From positions 5,445,001 through 5,509,000 of the forward strand of contig NZ_VAWE01000001.1 of NCBI RefSeq assembly GCF_005795905.1: a stretch of DNA of 64,000 nucleotides, read 5' to 3'. Below are positions 16,508 to 37,287 of this stretch, piece by piece. The notes below the pieces were generated by a model. It saw only the letters and a program-made list of their open reading frames with translations. It was not told the DNA's origin and made no database searches. The position numbers and the translations under genes are program-made. Within the stretch, counting starts at the first letter, position 1. Each line of letters begins with the position of its first letter. Origin of the DNA: Streptomyces marianii. GTDB lineage: Bacteria > Actinomycetota > Actinomycetes > Streptomycetales > Streptomycetaceae.

Positions 16508-16924
16508 TCAGCCCGCCCGGTGGTCGTCGCGGTCGCGCCAGTCGGCGAGGACCGCCTTGGGGATCTGACCGCGGTCCGGGACGTCGTAGCCGTTCGCCCG
16601 GGCCCAGGCGCGGACCTCCTTCGGGTCGTAGTCCCTGCTGGCGGCCTTGCCCTTCCGCTTGGGGAGCAGCTCGGCCTTGCGGCCGCGGAGCTCGGCCAGG
16701 CGCTGCTCGAGCTTGGCCTCCTCCGAGTCCAGCGCGGCGAGCTCCGTGTCCGCCTTGTGGCGGCGGCGCAGCGCGGTGATGCTGTCGCGGGCCTGCTCAG
16801 CCAGGTCCTGGACGGCCTTGTCCGGGTGTGCGGCTGCCCAGGTGAGGAGCGGCCCGAGGCCCAGTGCCTCGGGCTCGAGGTTCTGCGGGGCCTGTGCGGT
16901 TGCCACAGAGTAGGAGGGGGCCAT
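16508..16924 (-). CDS. Lsr2-type C-terminal domain protein
   Basis: 138 residues from ATG 16924, which has a strong AGGAG site. Residues 50-90 form a coiled coil with a basic end (KRKGKAASRD). Residues 101-128 read PKEVRAWARANGYDVPDRGQ and IPKAVLAD, matching the DNA-binding end of Lsr2, the AT-rich-DNA silencer of actinobacteria; the family's RGR minor-groove clasp is RGQ here (118-120). The usual Lsr2 N-terminal oligomerisation domain is replaced by a different helical part. It may silence prophage genes or interfere with host Lsr2; both are inference. Confidence 0.75.
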   Translation of the reverse strand: MAPSYSVATAQAPQNLEPEALGLGPLLTWAAAHPDKAVQDLAEQARDSITALRRRHKADTELAALDSEEAKLEQRLAELRGRKAELLPKRKGKAASRDYDPKEVRAWARANGYDVPDRGQIPKAVLADWRDRDDHRAG

Positions 16925-17028
16925 GGTTTTCTCCTGTCGCTTGGCTGCGGTGTGCGGGATCCAGGGGGCGTGGTGTCGGAGGACGTGCGGCTGCTCGGCG
17001 TCGAGGAGCGCGCGGAGCGCAGCGATGG

Positions 17029-17220
17029 TCACGGCCGGGCGCGGTAGAGGTGCCAGCCGAGGCACTTCATGCAGGGTTCGGGGACGTGGGCCTGGTTGGA
17101 CTGGCGCTGGCGGTCGACGACCGCCATGCGCGCGGCGAGCTCGTCCACGAAGCGGGGCCGGCCGGTCGGGCAGCCGACACGACGGTGCGGAACGGAAGGG
17201 CGTGCACGGCGACGGCTCAC
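17029..17220 (-). CDS. Small basic protein with CxxC
   Basis: 63 residues from a GTG overlapping the upstream stop (GTGA). Basic N-terminus (SRRRARPSVPHRRVGCPTG), a helix (FVDELAARMAVVDRQRQSNQ) and an EPCMKCLGWHLYRARP end with one CxxC. No family is recognised; the 4-base coupling and in-line position support it as a gene of the early transcript. Confidence 0.5.
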   Translation of the reverse strand: MSRRRARPSVPHRRVGCPTGRPRFVDELAARMAVVDRQRQSNQAHVPEPCMKCLGWHLYRARP

Positions 17221-18755: not shown

Positions 18756-19063
18756 CGCGGCCACCCCTGCCAGTGCGGGGCGCGTACGCCGGTCCTCTGC
18801 CGGGGCACGCTGCTGCGCGGCGGCCGCGGCCGGGCGCAGGTGGCCACGTGGGGCTTGGCGAGCCACTCGGCGTGCTCGAGGGTGGGGCGCTCCGAGGACA
18901 GCCCGCGGGAGCGCAGGCGGCCGGTTCCGTCCCGGTACACGGCGGTGTTGCCGTCCTCGGCCGGATCGGCGTCGACCGCGAGGCGCTTGCCGGCGGCCGT
19001 GACCGTCCACCGGATCCGGGATCCGCAGGAGTCGCATGTCGTCACGTCGTGGTCACTGGGCAC
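18752..19063 (-). CDS. Zinc-ribbon-like protein
   Basis: 103 residues from GTG 19063. TTCDSCGSRIRWTVTAAGKR is the first half of a zinc-ribbon; the partner ligands may be the His and Cys of HVATC near residue 74-78. An LAVDADPAEDGNTAVYRDG segment resembles a beta hairpin. It overlaps the replication-initiator-like gene by 11 bases and the two-HTH regulator by 4. No function is recognised. Confidence 0.62.
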   Translation of the reverse strand: MPSDHDVTTCDSCGSRIRWTVTAAGKRLAVDADPAEDGNTAVYRDGTGRLRSRGLSSERPTLEHAEWLAKPHVATCARPRPPRSSVPRQRTGVRAPHWQGWPR

Positions 19064-20036
19064 GGGGTCCTCCGGTGCCGGTGTCGGTCGTGGGTTCGGG
19101 CAGGAGCGCCCAGACGCGGTGCCGGCCGTACAGGCGGACCGCTTCGGCCCGGCCGTGTTCGGCCATGGCGCGGCGTACGTCGTCGTCCGAGGCCGTGGTG
19201 GCGGTCTGCGCGTGGTCCTCGGGCATGTGCGGCGGCGTGCGGACGGAGATCAGGAGTGGCTGTTGCCGGGCCTCCCCGCTGCTGCCGGTCTTGGCCGGTC
19301 CGCGGGCGGCGCGGCGGCCGCCGGACGGCGGAGGGACGAGGCGGGGCTGCTGCGGCGCAGCTGCTGCCTGCTGCTCCTCGCGCGCGCCCGCGGTGGGTGG
19401 CTGAGGTGAGAGGCCAGCCAGAGTGTGGTCGGGGTGGGGGTCCCTACCGGAGGTAGGGGGGTACTGGTAGGTCCCGCCGGGGACGGGTTCCGGATCGCGT
19501 CCCGGGACGGGTTCCGGTGCCGTCCGCGGACGGGTTCCGGAGTCGGTTGGTGCCCCGCCGGGGACGGGTTCCGGATCCCCCGCCGGGGACGGGTTCCGGA
19601 CCGCGTCCCCGGACGGGTTCCGGGGATCGGCCTTGGCGGCGAGCTCGGCCGCCGCCTTCTCCTTGGCGAGGCGGCGGGCCTTGGCCTGCCGGGACTCGCC
19701 CCAGATGTGCATGTGGGCTGCCCAGTTGATCCGCTCTGTGGGGATGAGCAGCTGGTAGACGGTGCTCTGGTTCGGCCGGCGCTTCGCGGCCATCAGCTCC
19801 GTGGCCTTAAGCAGGCGCACGCAGCGGGTGACGGTCTCCTCCGTGCACCCGGCGATGGCCGACAGCGTGGCGGTGGACGGGAAGGCGTTGGAGCCGTCCG
19901 CGTCGGCGTACGTGGCGATGATGATGCCGACGTGGGCGGCCTTGGAGACCTCGGGGCGCCGCGCGCGCAAGGCCTCGTCCCGGACGCGGTTGATCCACGC
20001 GTTCCGGACGGACTGCACATGCTCGCTGCTGCTCAC
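19053..20036 (-). CDS. Replication-initiator-like HTH protein containing an iteron array
   Basis: 327 residues. Residues 1-110 form a winged-helix domain (SKAAHVGIIIATYADADGSN, FPSTATLSAIAGCTEETVTRCVRLLKATELM) like the N-terminal domain of phage and plasmid initiators. Residues 130-200 are low-complexity Pro/Gly/Arg linker built from PEPVPG and RNPS units that reflect six DNA repeats in two reading frames. The C-terminal part has an ARAMAEHGRAEAVRLYG-like helix (MAEHGRAEAVRLYGRH). The layout (HTH, repetitive linker holding repeats, C-terminal domain) matches lambda O in plan, not in sequence. Confidence 0.72.
   Translation of the reverse strand: MSSSEHVQSVRNAWINRVRDEALRARRPEVSKAAHVGIIIATYADADGSNAFPSTATLSAIAGCTEETVTRCVRLLKATELMAAKRRPNQSTVYQLLIPTERINWAAHMHIWGESRQAKARRLAKEKAAAELAAKADPRNPSGDAVRNPSPAGDPEPVPGGAPTDSGTRPRTAPEPVPGRDPEPVPGGTYQYPPTSGRDPHPDHTLAGLSPQPPTAGAREEQQAAAAPQQPRLVPPPSGGRRAARGPAKTGSSGEARQQPLLISVRTPPHMPEDHAQTATTASDDDVRRAMAEHGRAEAVRLYGRHRVWALLPEPTTDTGTGGPRAQ
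19475..19624. repeat. Six direct repeats (iteron-like) inside the initiator-like gene
   Basis: The 13-mer GGACGGGTTCCGG occurs six times in the same orientation; its GACGGGTTCCGG part starts at 19482, 19506, 19529, 19563, 19588 and 19612, so spacing is 24, 23, 34, 25 and 24 bases, close to two helical turns apart from one gap. Copies 1, 4 and 5 share a 20-base version beginning CGCCGGGGAC. Because the spacing is not a multiple of three the repeats are read in two frames, as PEPVP and RNPS, so selection seems to be on the DNA. This is the pattern of an iteron origin within an initiator gene. Confidence 0.75.
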
Positions 20037-20100: not shown

Positions 20101-20499
20101 CTACTGGCCCTGGAGGCGCTTGAGGAGCGCCCGGGGGATGACCAGCTGGACGTTCGAGCGCTCCCACTTCACGGCGCCGTCCTGCTTGATCCACCCCCTG
20201 GACCGGAGGGTGTTGAGGGCGACGACGACCTGCGGCTGATGCAGTCCGGACGCGTTGGTGAGGCCGGCCAGTCGGGGCTGAGAGGCGGCGGGGATGTTGC
20301 CCGTGTCCCAGTCGGCGTAGGTGGCCAGAGCGAGGCCGACCAGGCGGGTGTGCGGGTGCAGCCCGGACTGGGTCATGGCGCGCTCATACAGAGGCCGGAA
20401 CGGCTGGGTGAGTTCGTCGCGGCGGGCGGGCCGCAGCGGGTCGAACGCCGGCTTCGACGGCATGTTGTTCGGCGTCGGCCGGGCGGGGGCGGTGGTCAT
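20101..20499 (-). CDS. Winged-helix protein of the replication block
   Basis: 132 residues. An unstructured start (TTAPARPTPNNMPSKP) is followed by a winged-helix domain: HTRLVGLALATYADWDTGNIP, SQPRLAGLTNASGLHQPQVVVALNTLRSRGWIKQ. It resembles the N-terminal domain of the larger initiator-like protein downstream, so the two may be a related pair acting at the same origin. The start overlaps the upstream stop by four bases. It could instead be a helicase loader or a regulator. Confidence 0.68.
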   Translation of the reverse strand: MTTAPARPTPNNMPSKPAFDPLRPARRDELTQPFRPLYERAMTQSGLHPHTRLVGLALATYADWDTGNIPAASQPRLAGLTNASGLHQPQVVVALNTLRSRGWIKQDGAVKWERSNVQLVIPRALLKRLQGQ

Positions 20500-23172: not shown

Positions 23173-23442
23173 TCAGCCGATGCGGACCGCGGCACCGCGC
23201 GGCGGCAGCGGCTTCAGATGCGCCATGGGGTGAGTGCCGGGCGCCGGCACGGGGAGGGTGGCCAGCGGGCTACTCGTCGGCTCGTGGTGGTGCAGGGCGT
23301 CGATGCGGTCGAGGTCCTCGTCGGAGAACGTGACGACCCGGCCCTTCTTGGAGTGCGGCAGGCGGCGGATGTTGCGGCGGAGCCAGCGCTCCTCTACGCG
23401 GAGGCGTTCCGCAGCCTCGGGGTAGGTGTAGCGGCGGCTCAT
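23173..23442 (-). CDS. Excisionase-like HTH protein
   Basis: 89 residues. MSRRYTYPEAAERLRVEERWLRRNIRRLPHSKKGRVVTFSDEDLDRI is the MerR-type winged helix typical of excisionase-family (Xis/AlpA-like) proteins: a tyrosine-bearing first helix, a recognition helix, a KGR wing and FSDEDLDRI as the third helix. The rest is Pro/His-rich tail. It overlaps the adjacent XRE-like gene by four bases and lies about 1.6 kb from the integrase, fitting an early gene that turns integration into excision. Confidence 0.75.
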   Translation of the reverse strand: MSRRYTYPEAAERLRVEERWLRRNIRRLPHSKKGRVVTFSDEDLDRIDALHHHEPTSSPLATLPVPAPGTHPMAHLKPLPPRGAAVRIG

Positions 23443-25030: not shown

Positions 25031-26281
25031 CTACCCCACTGACCGAAGCCCTGCCCGCTGCTCCGGCACCCCGAGCGCGGCCTCGACGGCGTCCGCGATG
25101 TCGTCATCGAGGCTCAGCACCAGATGCCCGTAACGATCCACCGTGGTCTGGATGCTCTCGTGCCCGAGCCGAATCTGAATCGCCGGCAGCGGGATCCGCC
25201 CGGCGATCAACCACGACGCGTGCGTGTGCCGCAGATCGTGCAACCGCGGCTTCTTTGGGAGCCCCTTCGCCACCGCGGCCGCGACCGCCGGCTGCCACTT
25301 CCGGTGGTAGTAGTTCGAATGCCGCCAGTTCCGCCCCGTAGCCGTACGGAAAAGGAAGTCGTCAGGCTGGCGCCCCGCAGCGTGGCGCCGTGCCACCTCC
25401 ACCTGTGCGGGGGACAGTCGGATGACCCGCCGAGCCTTCTTGGTCTTGGGCGGTCCCAGGAAGAACGACCCCCCCGGCGCGCCCTTCTTGGCCTTCTTCC
25501 ACGCCCTCTGGACGCTCACGGTGGGCCTCTCGCCGTTCAGGTTCAGGTCGCTCACCCTGAGCGCCGACGCCTCGCCCCAGCGCATCCCTGTACCCACGAG
25601 CCAGTCCGCCAGGTCCCGCGCGTCGGGGTCCTTGATCTCAGCCGCGATGCGCTGGTACTCGTCGCGCTCCAGGAACGTCATCTCCTCCTCCACATGGTCG
25701 TCTGCGCGGGGGAGCTTGGTCCTCTTGCAACAGTTGGACGTCCGCAACTGCGGCTCAGCATCGATGGCGGCCTGGATGATGCAGTAGAGCAGCCCATGCC
25801 GGTTCGCGATGCTCTTGGGGTCTGCCGGCCGACGACGCCATCTCTCCGGGTCCTCGGGGTCCCGTTCGCCTGCCTCCTCGACGCGCACCCAGTCGGTCAC
25901 GTCTTCCTGGGTGAGGTTGCCGATGGTCGCGGAGTGTTCGCGGCCCGCATGGTCGGTGTGCCGTAGGAGAGAGAGGTGGATGCGCACCTCCCGGTGGTAG
26001 TCCTCGCGGGTGCGCTCGTCGATGCCGGTAAGCCGGTCGACGTAGCGAGTCGCGTAGTCGGGGAACGGGACGTCGCCGGGGATCGCGGGCTCCTCGACGA
26101 AGCCCAGCCCACGGACCCAGCCGTGCGGCCACTGCCCGCCGTGTGCCTCTACGAGGGCTTTGAACTGCTCCGCCGCGGGGCGCTCGCGGAAGTTCTCGGT
26201 CTGCCACTGGCCATCCTGACGCCATTTCACCTGAAAGGTGATGGCGCCGCTCTTCTTGGGGCGTTCCGCAATGCTCGCCAT
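25031..26281 (-). CDS. int: Tyrosine recombinase integrase
   Basis: 416 residues from ATG 26281. N-terminal arm-binding type region (SGAITFQVKWRQDGQW), SAM-like core-binding region at about 70-180, then the catalytic domain with Arg 234 (TGMRWGEA), a basic GPPKTKKARR beta-hairpin (candidate Lys 279), His 348/Arg 351 (HDLRH), His 374 (LGHESIQTT) and the nucleophile Tyr 384 (VDRYGHL). All catalytic positions are intact. The gene starts 111 bases from the tRNA-His 3' end and reads away from it, so that tRNA is the integration site. Confidence 0.95.
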   Translation of the reverse strand: MASIAERPKKSGAITFQVKWRQDGQWQTENFRERPAAEQFKALVEAHGGQWPHGWVRGLGFVEEPAIPGDVPFPDYATRYVDRLTGIDERTREDYHREVRIHLSLLRHTDHAGREHSATIGNLTQEDVTDWVRVEEAGERDPEDPERWRRRPADPKSIANRHGLLYCIIQAAIDAEPQLRTSNCCKRTKLPRADDHVEEEMTFLERDEYQRIAAEIKDPDARDLADWLVGTGMRWGEASALRVSDLNLNGERPTVSVQRAWKKAKKGAPGGSFFLGPPKTKKARRVIRLSPAQVEVARRHAAGRQPDDFLFRTATGRNWRHSNYYHRKWQPAVAAAVAKGLPKKPRLHDLRHTHASWLIAGRIPLPAIQIRLGHESIQTTVDRYGHLVLSLDDDIADAVEAALGVPEQRAGLRSVG

Positions 26282-26349
26282 GAGCAGACGATACGACCGG
26301 ATCACGGGGTCTGTGTTCCCGCTGTGTTCCCGAAGTTTCGACCATGACG

Positions 26350-26381
26350 AAGGCCCGGCCTGTTTTCGCAGGCCGGGCCTT
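26350..26381 (-). terminator. Strong hairpin between tRNA-His and the integrase
   Basis: Perfect 13-bp stem AAGGCCCGGCCTG (26350-26362) / CAGGCCGGGCCTT (26369-26381) with loop TTTTCG, 11 bases after the tRNA end. It ends tRNA transcription and shields int. Whether it belongs to host or element depends on where the attachment core ends. Confidence 0.85.
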
Positions 26382-26391
26382 GATCGTTCAG

Positions 26392-26435
26392 GGTGAGTGA
26401 CGGGACTCGAACCCGCGGCATCCTGGACCACAACC
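26392..26435. other. Probable attachment site (right junction) in tRNA-His 3' half
   Basis: Elements with tyrosine integrases usually recombine inside the 3' half of a tRNA gene and carry a copy of that half, so the host gene stays intact. Here int abuts the tRNA 3' end, so the core should lie between the anticodon arm and the tRNA end. The exact core cannot be set because the other junction is outside the window. Confidence 0.6.
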
Positions 26436-26465
26436 AGGTGCTCTACCAGCTGAGCTACACCCACC
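26392..26465 (-). tRNA. tRNA-His (anticodon GTG)
   Basis: The minus strand folds as a complete tRNA: acceptor stem GTGGGTG / CACTCAC (with one G-T), D arm GCTCAGCTGGTAGAGC, anticodon arm CCTGG-TTGTGGT-CCAGG with anticodon GTG at 26431-26429, and T arm GCGGGTTCGAGTCCCGT. A G stands at -1 (26465) as expected for tRNA-His, the discriminator is C (26392), and CCA is not encoded. The gene remains whole although the element is inserted at its 3' end. Confidence 0.97.
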
Positions 26466-34867: not shown

Positions 34868-36649
34868 CTACCGGAACCGCGCGATCGGGTTCTCCAGGTC
34901 ACCCACCAGCTGGAGGGCGCCCGACGGGTCGGCCAGGTCCACCATCTGCCTGTTGTCGCGCAGCTGGAGCCGGTTGAGGCAGGACAGCGCGAACTCCGGC
35001 GCGAACATGTCGTACTGGGCGAACTTCTCCCGCAGGTGCGGCATCGACTCCTGGTAGCCGGTGACGCACTCGGCGACCGTCCGCCAGAAGGCGTCCTCGT
35101 CCAGCACGCCCTCCGTGACCAGCGCGGCGCCGAGGAACCGGAAGAAGCAGTCGAAGACGTCCGTGAAGACCGACAGCAGCTTCATGTTCTCGGGGACCTC
35201 GGCGCGGACCCGCTCGACCGCGGGCGGAAGCACCGCGTCCGGGTCCATCACGCAGATCTCCTCGGCGATGTCCTTGAAGATCGCGCGCCGCACCGCGCCA
35301 TCCTCGCCGAGCACCAGGATGACGTTCTCCCCGTGCGGCATGTAGACGAGGTCGTACGCGTAGAAGCAGTGCAGCACCGGCAGCAGGTAGGCGTCCAGGT
35401 AGCGGCGCAGCCACACCTCGGGCGCCAGCCCCGACCCGGTGATGAGCGCGCCGGCGAAGGACTTCCCGGAGCGGTCGGTGTGCAGCAGCGAGGCCATCGT
35501 CGCCAGCCGCTCACCGTCCTCCAGGGTGTCCACCGGGCTCTCGCGCCAGAGCGCGGCCAGCATCTTGCGGTAAGGGGAGAAACGATCCGTCGCAGCCTCG
35601 TACTCCAGGTGCCGGTACCCGACCGCGGCCCGCTCGCGGATGATCGAGAAGCGCGCCGTCGTCAGTACCTCGTCGCTCTCGATCAGTCCGGCGAGCCAGT
35701 CGTTGATGGCGGGCGTGGCCTCCATGTACGCGGCGGACAGCCCCCGCATGAAGCCCATGTTGATGACGGACATCGCCGTCTTCACGTAGTGCTTCGACGG
35801 GTCGCTGGTGTTGAAGAAGGTGCGGATCGACTGCTGGGCCAGGTACGCGTCGTCGCCCTCCCCGAGCGGCACCAGCCGCCGCCGGGCCACCTCGGCGGCG
35901 AAGGTGACGGAGAGTTTGTTCCACCACTGCCAGGGGTGGACGGGCATCAGCAGGTAGTCCGCCGGGTCCAGCCCGAGGCCGCGCAGCCGGGCGTCGAACC
36001 GGTCGAGCGTCCCCCGGCCCAGCTCGGCCCGCATCAGGTTCTCGTAGCCGAGGTCCGTGCAGGAGGTGAACGCGGCACGCGAGCGGTGCGCGGCCACCCA
36101 CAGCAGCCGGACCGGGGCCGCGGCCTCCGGCGCGTACCGGTGGTACTCGTGGATGCCGAAGCCGAGCCGCCCGTTGTTGGCGACGAAGCAGGGGTGGCCC
36201 TCGGTCATCCCGGTCTCGATGTCCTGGAACCCGGCGCGGCTGAGCTCGGCGGCGGACACCTCGGGCTTGGTGAGCTTGTACGCCGCGCCGGACAGGGTGG
36301 AGGAGATCTCCTCCAGGTACACCGGCAGGATCTCGTCGGACAGGCCGAGCGCGCCGCGCAGCTCGGTGAAGAACTCCAGTGCGTCCAGCGGGAGTTCCGC
36401 GCCGTCGCGGTGGCGGGTCACGGAGTCCGCCTCGACCTGCCAGTGGTCGAGCGCCAGCCGCCCGGCGGCGAACCGGTACTCGGTCCTGCCGTCGTCGCTG
36501 AGCACCGCCCAGCGGCCGTCCCCGAGGTCCCTCGGCGCGAGCAGCCGCTCGTGGGAGAACTCGGCGAGACCCTTGCGGATCAGCAGCCGGTTGGCCTCCG
36601 ACCACAGCTCGGGGGTGAGGTGGGCGACGCTGTCGATCGCCGTGCTCAT
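34868..36649 (-). CDS. desD: DesD, NIS-family desferrioxamine synthetase
   Basis: 593 residues, normal for IucA/IucC-family (NRPS-independent siderophore) synthetases. The family segments are seen: GHPCFVANNGRLGFGIHEYHRYAPEA near 160-185, HPWQWWNK, then KHYVKTAMSVINMGFMRGLS and YMPHGENVILVLGEDGAVRRAIFKDIAEEICV in the C-terminal half. It activates succinyl-hydroxycadaverine with ATP and joins and cyclises three units to desferrioxamine E or related compounds. Last gene of desABCD; its start overlaps the desC stop by four bases. Confidence 0.96.
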   Translation of the reverse strand: MSTAIDSVAHLTPELWSEANRLLIRKGLAEFSHERLLAPRDLGDGRWAVLSDDGRTEYRFAAGRLALDHWQVEADSVTRHRDGAELPLDALEFFTELRGALGLSDEILPVYLEEISSTLSGAAYKLTKPEVSAAELSRAGFQDIETGMTEGHPCFVANNGRLGFGIHEYHRYAPEAAAPVRLLWVAAHRSRAAFTSCTDLGYENLMRAELGRGTLDRFDARLRGLGLDPADYLLMPVHPWQWWNKLSVTFAAEVARRRLVPLGEGDDAYLAQQSIRTFFNTSDPSKHYVKTAMSVINMGFMRGLSAAYMEATPAINDWLAGLIESDEVLTTARFSIIRERAAVGYRHLEYEAATDRFSPYRKMLAALWRESPVDTLEDGERLATMASLLHTDRSGKSFAGALITGSGLAPEVWLRRYLDAYLLPVLHCFYAYDLVYMPHGENVILVLGEDGAVRRAIFKDIAEEICVMDPDAVLPPAVERVRAEVPENMKLLSVFTDVFDCFFRFLGAALVTEGVLDEDAFWRTVAECVTGYQESMPHLREKFAQYDMFAPEFALSCLNRLQLRDNRQMVDLADPSGALQLVGDLENPIARFR

Positions 36650-37287
36650 CGCTCCGCCTCCACGTCGCCGACGGCCGCCTCGAACTGCTCACGCGTGCAG
36701 AAGCTCAGCAGCGCCGTCTTCTCGGGCTTCCGGATCTCGCGCTCGGGCACGAAGCCGACGGCCGCGTTGAGCGCGTGCACGGCCTTGTTGCCGACGTCCG
36801 GCTCGACGACGACCCGTCGCGTCGCCGGGTCGGCGAACAGCTCGCGCATCACGGCGGTGATCACGGCCCGGGTGAAGCCGTGGACCGGGGTGTCGGTCGG
36901 GGCGACCAGGAAGTGCATGCCGACGTCGCCCGGCTGGGGGTCGTAGAGACCGACCAGCTCCACGTGGCGCGGGTCGTAGCGCTCCATCAGGAAGGCCGGC
37001 TCGCCGTCGTGCAGCCCGATGAAGGCGTCGTGGTGCTCGTGCGCGGCGATCCTCGTGTACTCGCGCTCGACGTCCTGCAGCCTGGCGTCCTGCATCATCC
37101 AGAACGCGGCCTTCGGGTCGGTGACCCAGCGGTGCAGCAGCTCGGCGTCGCTCGGGGTCTCCCCACCTGAGGCAGGGGTTGGGGTCTCCCCACCTGAGGC
37201 AAGGGTTGAGGTCTCCCCACCGGAGGTAGGGGAAAGGTCGAGGGGACGGAAGGAGAACGTCCCCAGGGCGGGGGCGGTGGTGCTCAT
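36646..37287 (-). CDS. desC: DesC, N-hydroxycadaverine acyltransferase
   Basis: 213 residues from ATG 37287 (ATGA overlap with desB). After a 45-residue N-terminus made of three 9-residue units (variants of ASGGETPTP), there is a GNAT-like acyltransferase domain of the IucB/AlcB type: [90 protein letters not shown]. It transfers acetyl or succinyl from CoA to N-hydroxycadaverine. The repeated N-terminus is not part of the fold and looks like a recent expansion. Confidence 0.94.
37156..37236 (-). repeat. Three 27-bp tandem repeats inside desC
   Basis: Units begin at 37156, 37183 and 37210, each starting GGTCTCCCCACC on the plus strand; units 1 and 2 differ at 2 of 27 bases, unit 3 diverges more towards its end. 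Being multiples of three they keep the reading frame and encode the 9-residue steps SGGET at the N-terminus of DesC. Each unit contains an imperfect palindrome of the CCCCACCTGAGGCAGGGG type. Confidence 0.85.

Follow-up and report, generated by a model that had tools for sequence, protein, structure and literature searches.

Does a short DNA word that recurs six times within the coding sequence of a single prophage gene serve the encoded peptide or the DNA itself, and, if the DNA, which protein reads it and to what end? Replication origins that lie inside a gene have been described in a few model phages and plasmids. Here we examine such a locus in Streptomyces marianii, within the 64,000-nucleotide stretch of an 8.40-Mb contig that was analysed as a whole (the window), and conclude that the repeats are probably iterons bound by the N-terminal winged helix-turn-helix (HTH) domain of their own gene's protein, most likely as a phage origin.

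The repeat array and the gene that carries it

The array and its carrier gene comprise the following features.

19053..20036, minus strand: initiator-like winged-HTH gene, 327 aa, with the array inside (HTH_36 PF13730, phrog_1032, phrog_391)
19803..19931, minus strand: HTH, residues 36-78 (residue 55 at 19872-19874, residue 66 at 19839-19841)
19611..19623, plus strand: iteron copy, first in gene order, frame RNPS
19587..19599, plus strand: iteron copy, second in gene order, frame RNPS
19562..19574, plus strand: iteron copy, third in gene order, frame PEPVP
19528..19540, plus strand: iteron copy, fourth in gene order, frame GTRPR
19505..19517, plus strand: iteron copy, fifth in gene order, frame PEPVP
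19481..19493, plus strand: iteron copy, sixth in gene order, frame PEPVP

On the plus strand, six exact copies of GGACGGGTTCCGG start at 19481, 19505, 19528, 19562, 19587, and 19611, with start-to-start spacings of 24, 23, 34, 25, and 24, and all six fall in the linker region of the minus-strand open reading frame at 19053-20036. Their reading frames in gene order are 2, 2, 0, 1, 0, and 0, giving RNPS twice, PEPVP three times, and GTRPR once. In 2,000 synonymous-codon shuffles of the gene, the commonest exact 13-mer reached three copies in 13 shuffles and never exceeded three, against the six observed; under the looser count of 12-mers with one mismatch allowed, seven copies are present and 60 shuffles gave a maximum of five, reached once. 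The 9.01-Mb host genome contains eight exact copies of GGACGGGTTCCGG, six of them in the array, and no copy of the reversed pattern. The first-pass annotation, which had described six same-direction copies in the linker of an HTH gene, was thus right about the repeats, which are exact and lie beyond the reach of synonymous shuffling, and its PEPVP and RNPS readings were borne out, but the two frames that it gave are in fact three, GTRPR being the additional one.

The array gene belongs to a 42.3-kb integrated prophage (contig positions 5429130-5471413), whose head genes (terminase, portal, maturation protease, and major head protein) lie at 1.7-6.9 kb of the window. On the other side of the array are the following features.

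20101..20499, minus strand: small winged-HTH gene, 132 aa, neighbour of the initiator-like gene (44% identical to Chymera gp44)
23173..23442, minus strand: excisionase (phrog_1840, 3e-15)
25031..26305, minus strand: tyrosine integrase (phrog_1, 5.2e-57)
26373..26413, no strand: 41-bp att repeat overlapping tRNA-His (26391-26464)

The second att copy lies 42.2 kb leftward, beyond the window edge (L060 4130-4170). The locus had been proposed to come from an actinophage or a phage-plasmid; the integrase, excisionase, and 41-bp att repeat at tRNA-His bear out the actinophage, whereas a phage-plasmid would be maintained extrachromosomally and this element is integrated, so that part of the proposal is unsupported. 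The window protein had no match at E values up to 1e-5 in 72,556 plasmid records or in phage records, and a DNA search found nothing in the plasmid records and, among phage records, reached Chymera via the neighbouring gene. The part of the prophage inside the window has 41 called genes, 26 of which were profiled with PHROGs (15.9 kb of the prophage lies outside the window); no helicase or loader profile was found in these 26 of 41 genes or in five neighbours of relatives, from four loci. As a separate observation, the product of a small prophage gene (window 16508-17032) matches Lsr2-like DNA-bridging families through its C-terminal part, and it also matches a family labelled WhiB.

The carrier protein matches HTH_36 (PF13730) in Pfam above the cutoff (5.4e-6), and its HTH region matches the replication-initiation family phrog_1032 (1.5e-5) and the O-like family phrog_391 (3.3e-5); for the relative at L050, the replication-initiation and O-like matches are 4e-8 and 1.1e-6. 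By these PHROG profiles, the protein resembles phage initiators. A structure model with a mean pLDDT of 74 is confident over residues 11-130, where block means are 86-97, with helices at 10-25, 28-43, 55-62, and 66-78, two strands forming a wing, and further helices at 105-112 and 116-136, and is disordered in the array-bearing linker (block means of ~50-64). In this model, residue 55 begins one of the two HTH helices (55-62) and residue 66 the other (66-78). A fold search with the model gave no match with an E value below 0.001; a MarR regulator ranked first, and most listed matches were transcription regulators, MarR type above all, with centromere-binding proteins also present. The entries 4pql, 5kbj (“Rep-DNA complex”), and 4pt7 (“initiator”) ranked 2, 3, and 13 (E of 0.017-0.07).

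Conservation of the array and its flanking hairpin

Relatives were sought with a six-member alignment of the N-terminal domain, three members of which had been recruited through the repeat pattern. Genome contigs yielded 14 loci, of which 12 belong to Streptomyces and 2 to Kitasatospora, and viral contigs a further 26; removing six duplicates, four distant relatives (L052-L055), and the truncated L028 from these 40 loci, and adding the window, gave 30 genes. The array is present in all 30, with at least five sites per gene at up to three mismatches to the gene's own core, a setting at which some weak sites may be chance, and at least three sites within one mismatch. Sites occupy three frames in 16 of the 30 genes and two in 14. 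Gene-strand cores are CCGGACAGCGTCC in 17 genes, CCGGAACCCGTCC (the window type) in 6, CCGGAACCCGTTC in 3, and four others in one gene each, and the three variable bases of GGACG-NNN-TCCGG change together across the copies (GGT, CTG, ACT, CCT).

Spacing is similarly regular. Among 148 adjacent spacings between sites with at most two mismatches, 96 are 23-25, 23 are 32-34, 25 are 43-47, 2 are 56-58, and 2 are 12-13. The steps of 24, 34, and 45 differ by about one helical turn, and three sites spaced 23 + 24 occur in 27 of 30 genes, the remaining three retaining the 47-bp outer distance; these bands were taken from the same data, a missed site would also turn 23 and 24 into 47, and the genes share ancestry. 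Core mismatches are spread over codon positions (37/880, 36/816, and 57/891), and N-terminal substitutions in eight close pairs favour third positions (36/24/142). The earlier view that the DNA rather than the peptide is conserved is supported across the family, the array being kept in every gene as DNA, in two or three frames and at near-constant spacings; no close homologue among the 30 lacks the repeats while keeping the peptide.

A search that started from the repeat pattern recovered 25 viral stretches in which one of four cores occurs as a close pair (5 + 18 + 1 + 1), 22 of them within such an initiator gene, with most of the contigs already known from the protein search; L068 was counted as in-gene, as it is on the same contig as L050 with the same spacings, and the frame flagged for it is spurious. 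The other three (L067 1956, L070 2769, and L077 13552) are pairs of CTG-type cores, spaced 24, 24, and 34, outside initiator genes. Across 392 genomes of the genus, the exact pair pattern matched in three: the window's own array and L008 and L009, which were rejected as further arrays, the pairs lying in repetitive-looking sequence outside such a gene. The N-terminal piece gave four matches in 61 genomes, its own (4e-81) and three weak ones. The distant relatives, kept out of the family counts, are mixed: L052 (110 aa) is without an array, L053 and L054 have five copies each of other repeats (maxima of 4 and 3 in 60 synonymous shuffles), and L055 has three copies, a number also reached by 3 of 60 shuffles.

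Two further elements follow the array in gene order.

19442..19458, no strand: hairpin or palindrome CCCTACC-NNN-GGTAGGG, conserved with compensating changes
19397..19408, minus strand: conserved block CACCTCAGCCAC after the hairpin, with at most two mismatches in 27 of 30 genes, window included

The hairpin, with a stem of 6-8 bp and a loop of 3-4 bases (usually CCCTACC-TNC-GGTAGGG), is found in 30 of 30 genes. Choosing the longest stem within 70 bases (from a start set by hand in L016) guarantees that every gene shows a stem, but not that sequence and pairing are shared. Compensating changes affect seven of eight stem pairs (8 cells over 26 distinct rows, several of them from L021 alone), which none of 500 shuffles reaches. 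The hairpin occurs at one place in the host genome and could act as DNA or as RNA. The CACCTCAGCCAC block was not found at up to two mismatches in L030, L032, and L050; in L037, its automatic placement was wrong, and the block is nevertheless present. A stretch resembling it can be seen by eye in phage Chymera. Near the iterons there is no AT-rich unwinding region, G+C content being 65-85% in 100-base windows, and the highest 25-base mean over the 30 genes is 39% A+T, just after the hairpin.

Co-variation of the iteron core with two HTH residues

Since each core gives distinct peptides in its frames, the core can be decoded from protein sequence. From searches and loci we assembled 202 proteins (one search listing 120 of its 202 matches), of which 195 were clear and 191 remained after four duplicates were removed. 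Among the matches listed, the third variable base on the gene strand (n3) is C in 47, G in 142, and T in 2 of the 191 clear proteins, and mutual information with the triplet places columns 55 and 66 as the top two of 130 (195 proteins). Among these listed matches, R55 is present in 139 of 142 proteins with n3 = G versus 0 of 47 with n3 = C, and position 66 is E or D in 45 of 47 n3 = C proteins versus 13 of 142 n3 = G proteins. The rule “R55 or R/K66,” framed after the data had been seen, covers 144/144 proteins with n3 = G or T and 0/47 with n3 = C among the matches listed, two of the latter 47 having K55. In the presence of R55, and again among the matches listed, Q66 accompanies CAG in 100 of 104 proteins and K66 accompanies AGG in 5 of 7, at least three of these five being in one clade. 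One K66 protein, P0157, has earlier sites that read as the AGG type and a last two of the CAG type, and its array has possibly been caught mid-switch.

A tree of 102 representatives was built with columns 55 and 66 left out. On the best tree n3 changes eight times, at least three of which are forced by well-supported (starred) branches. Seven independent pairs could be drawn, and all seven fit the rule in each of 300 random pairings; with tree-independent pairs, the first and second places among the 130 columns again go to 55 and 66. Restricted to starred branches, there are only three independent pairs, and the rule with K55 runs the same way in a mean of 2.8 of 3, never the opposite way. Four loci found later by a CAG-core search (L064, L069, L078, and L080) have R55 in 4/4, L064 and L069 being near-identical. 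Within clades, no column separates the core types fully in clade A, where 66 is best; nine columns do so in clade B, of which only 55 and 66 separate fully by charge group; and clade C (4 rows), with 36 separating columns, is uninformative.

A comparison of the family profile with Escherichia coli CRP, weak in itself (E of 0.17), aligns 66 with Arg180, 67 with Glu181, 71 with Arg185, and 55 with Arg169; according to PMC12531629, Arg180, Glu181, and Arg185 contact bases and Arg169 contacts a phosphate, and the bases contacted are given in PMC11253593. Among the matches listed, 181 of 191 proteins have E67 and 173 have R71. The co-variation lends indirect support to binding of the iterons by the initiator, and the repeats are very likely sites bound by the product of the gene in which they lie. 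New here is a sizeable family in which the specificity code linking iteron and HTH can be read, and in the open-licence PMC literature we found no paper describing this initiator family or its arrays.

A candidate phage origin among known systems and rival readings

The array is most likely the replication origin of a temperate Streptomyces phage. After induction, the early operon would be transcribed and the initiator made, copies of which would bind the phased repeats inside their own gene via a CRP-like recognition helix. The complex would then open DNA close by, the probable site being the conserved hairpin with the block that follows it, and the C-terminal part of the initiator, or a partner, may recruit the host helicase. 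Beyond this, we tentatively suggest, as a possibility that we rate below even, an actinophage origin family in which reader and address share bases in three frames, the CRP-like helix and the iterons have switched together, residues 55 and 66 predict much of the triplet, and a covarying hairpin, instead of an AT-rich region, is where this very GC-rich DNA opens or the primer is loaded.

The closest precedents are lambda ori and SPP1 oriL. According to PMC7466680, the lambda iterons lie mid-gene in the initiator gene O and are imperfect inverted repeats. The annotated lambda iterons start at O positions 348, 368, 392, and 415 (20, 24, and 23 apart; frames 0, 2, 2, and 1), and our control recovered all four with a 13-mer and two mismatches and three with a 12-mer and one mismatch. 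The parallel with lambda drawn in the first-pass annotation is therefore sound as to several direct repeats inside an initiator gene. The window family differs in its repeat, in its usual copy number of six to seven, in having a separate conserved hairpin in place of any AT-rich region, in the presence of several core types within one family, and in that no P-like loader was recognised among the genes profiled. For SPP1, PMC6316719 describes oriL repeats within gene 38, whose product gp38 binds them, as well as a second origin, an AT-rich unwinding element, the loader gp39, and the helicase gp40. Origin repeats inside the binding protein's gene are the shared feature, whereas no second origin, AT-rich element, loader, or helicase was recognised in the parts of the window family examined; the gene adjoining the initiator in L050 belongs to the uncharacterised family phrog_8924, and its candidacy as an SPP1-type loader is unsupported. 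Although the array may work like lambda ori and SPP1 oriL, we do not file it as a lambda-type origin, because it is without an AT-rich region and no loader was recognised in 26 of 41 genes, nor do we count it as a member of the SPP1 type.

Three other systems share parts of this arrangement. The fold-search entries 4pql, 5kbj, and 4pt7, which we take to be staphylococcal RepA proteins with iterons inside rep, link the window protein to RepA-type plasmid initiators by their ranks, but their E values are high, Pfam gave HTH_36 and HTH_Crp_2 only, with no RepA_N match at E values up to 1, and the window element is an integrated phage rather than a plasmid. The likeness to CRP/FNR-type proteins lies in the aligned residues 66, 67, and 71 and is confined to the HTH, and the window sites lie in the protein's own gene. 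Finally, gp45 of the isolated Streptomyces venezuelae phage Chymera (KU958700; L063 2889-3971), a hypothetical gene, contains six copies of GGGGGACAGTGCC in two frames, with spacings of 36, 36, 36, 25, and 24. The array has the same place, adjoining the relative of the window's small HTH gene, but the repeat is different and the gene has no detectable similarity to the window gene (E of 0.18); the gp45 array is possibly an origin of its own type.

Which protein reads the window array, and for what purpose, could be construed otherwise. The small winged-HTH protein encoded at 20101-20499, or a host factor, might read the sites, and a second HTH gene does adjoin the array. However, its Chymera relative adjoins an unrelated array in a dissimilar gene, which on comparative grounds makes it improbable that this neighbour reads the array or sets its repeat; the residues that the core follows are those of the array-bearing gene itself, and a host factor would not account for several cores within one host genus. 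We regard reading by another protein as very improbable. A more serious alternative, if still an unlikely one, is an operator cluster, in which the HTH protein, bound within its own gene, represses the early operon or sets its timing and replication starts elsewhere. Autoregulation fits an HTH protein that binds its own gene, an AT-rich region is absent, the fold matches are mostly transcription regulators, and the results here do not separate binding for transcription from binding for replication. Yet six or more phased copies lie mid-gene rather than at the gene start, the profiles are those of replication initiation rather than of repressors, and the prophage has no exact GGACGGGTTCCGG copy besides the six of the array.

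We give hardly any credence to either of the two remaining readings. If a proline-rich linker were selected as protein, the DNA repeats would be a by-product, and the linkers are indeed low-complexity and proline-rich; against this, three frames give unrelated peptides, just 70 of the 148 spacings are multiples of three, synonymous shuffles do not produce the array, and the linker is disordered in the model. Frames, spacings, and shuffles together refute the peptide reading of the complete array. Phased direct repeats are likewise a mark of partition sites, and centromere-binding proteins are among the fold matches, as would suit centromere-like or packaging repeats lying in the gene by chance; however, the prophage is integrated with att sites present, and profiling of 26 of the 41 prophage genes in the window gave no match to a partition profile.

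If the array is a phage origin bound by its own gene's product, it would define origins for a group of Streptomyces prophages in which the gene has been named at most “helix-turn-helix protein,” and it raises the question of how an origin without an AT-rich region opens. The roughly two hundred natural relatives form a data set on initiator and origin specificity changing together in the same bases, and the specificity question is testable with natural proteins and arrays.

Elsewhere in the window, a 27-bp GC-rich repeat (~2.9 copies; 37154-37232) falls within the N-terminal portion of a gene resembling acetyltransferases (36646-37287), whose AAC(6') model matches are far below cutoffs. The surrounding cluster is presumably a desferrioxamine-type siderophore cluster. 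The GGGTCTCCCCACC stretch of this repeat occurs twice in the genome, both times here.
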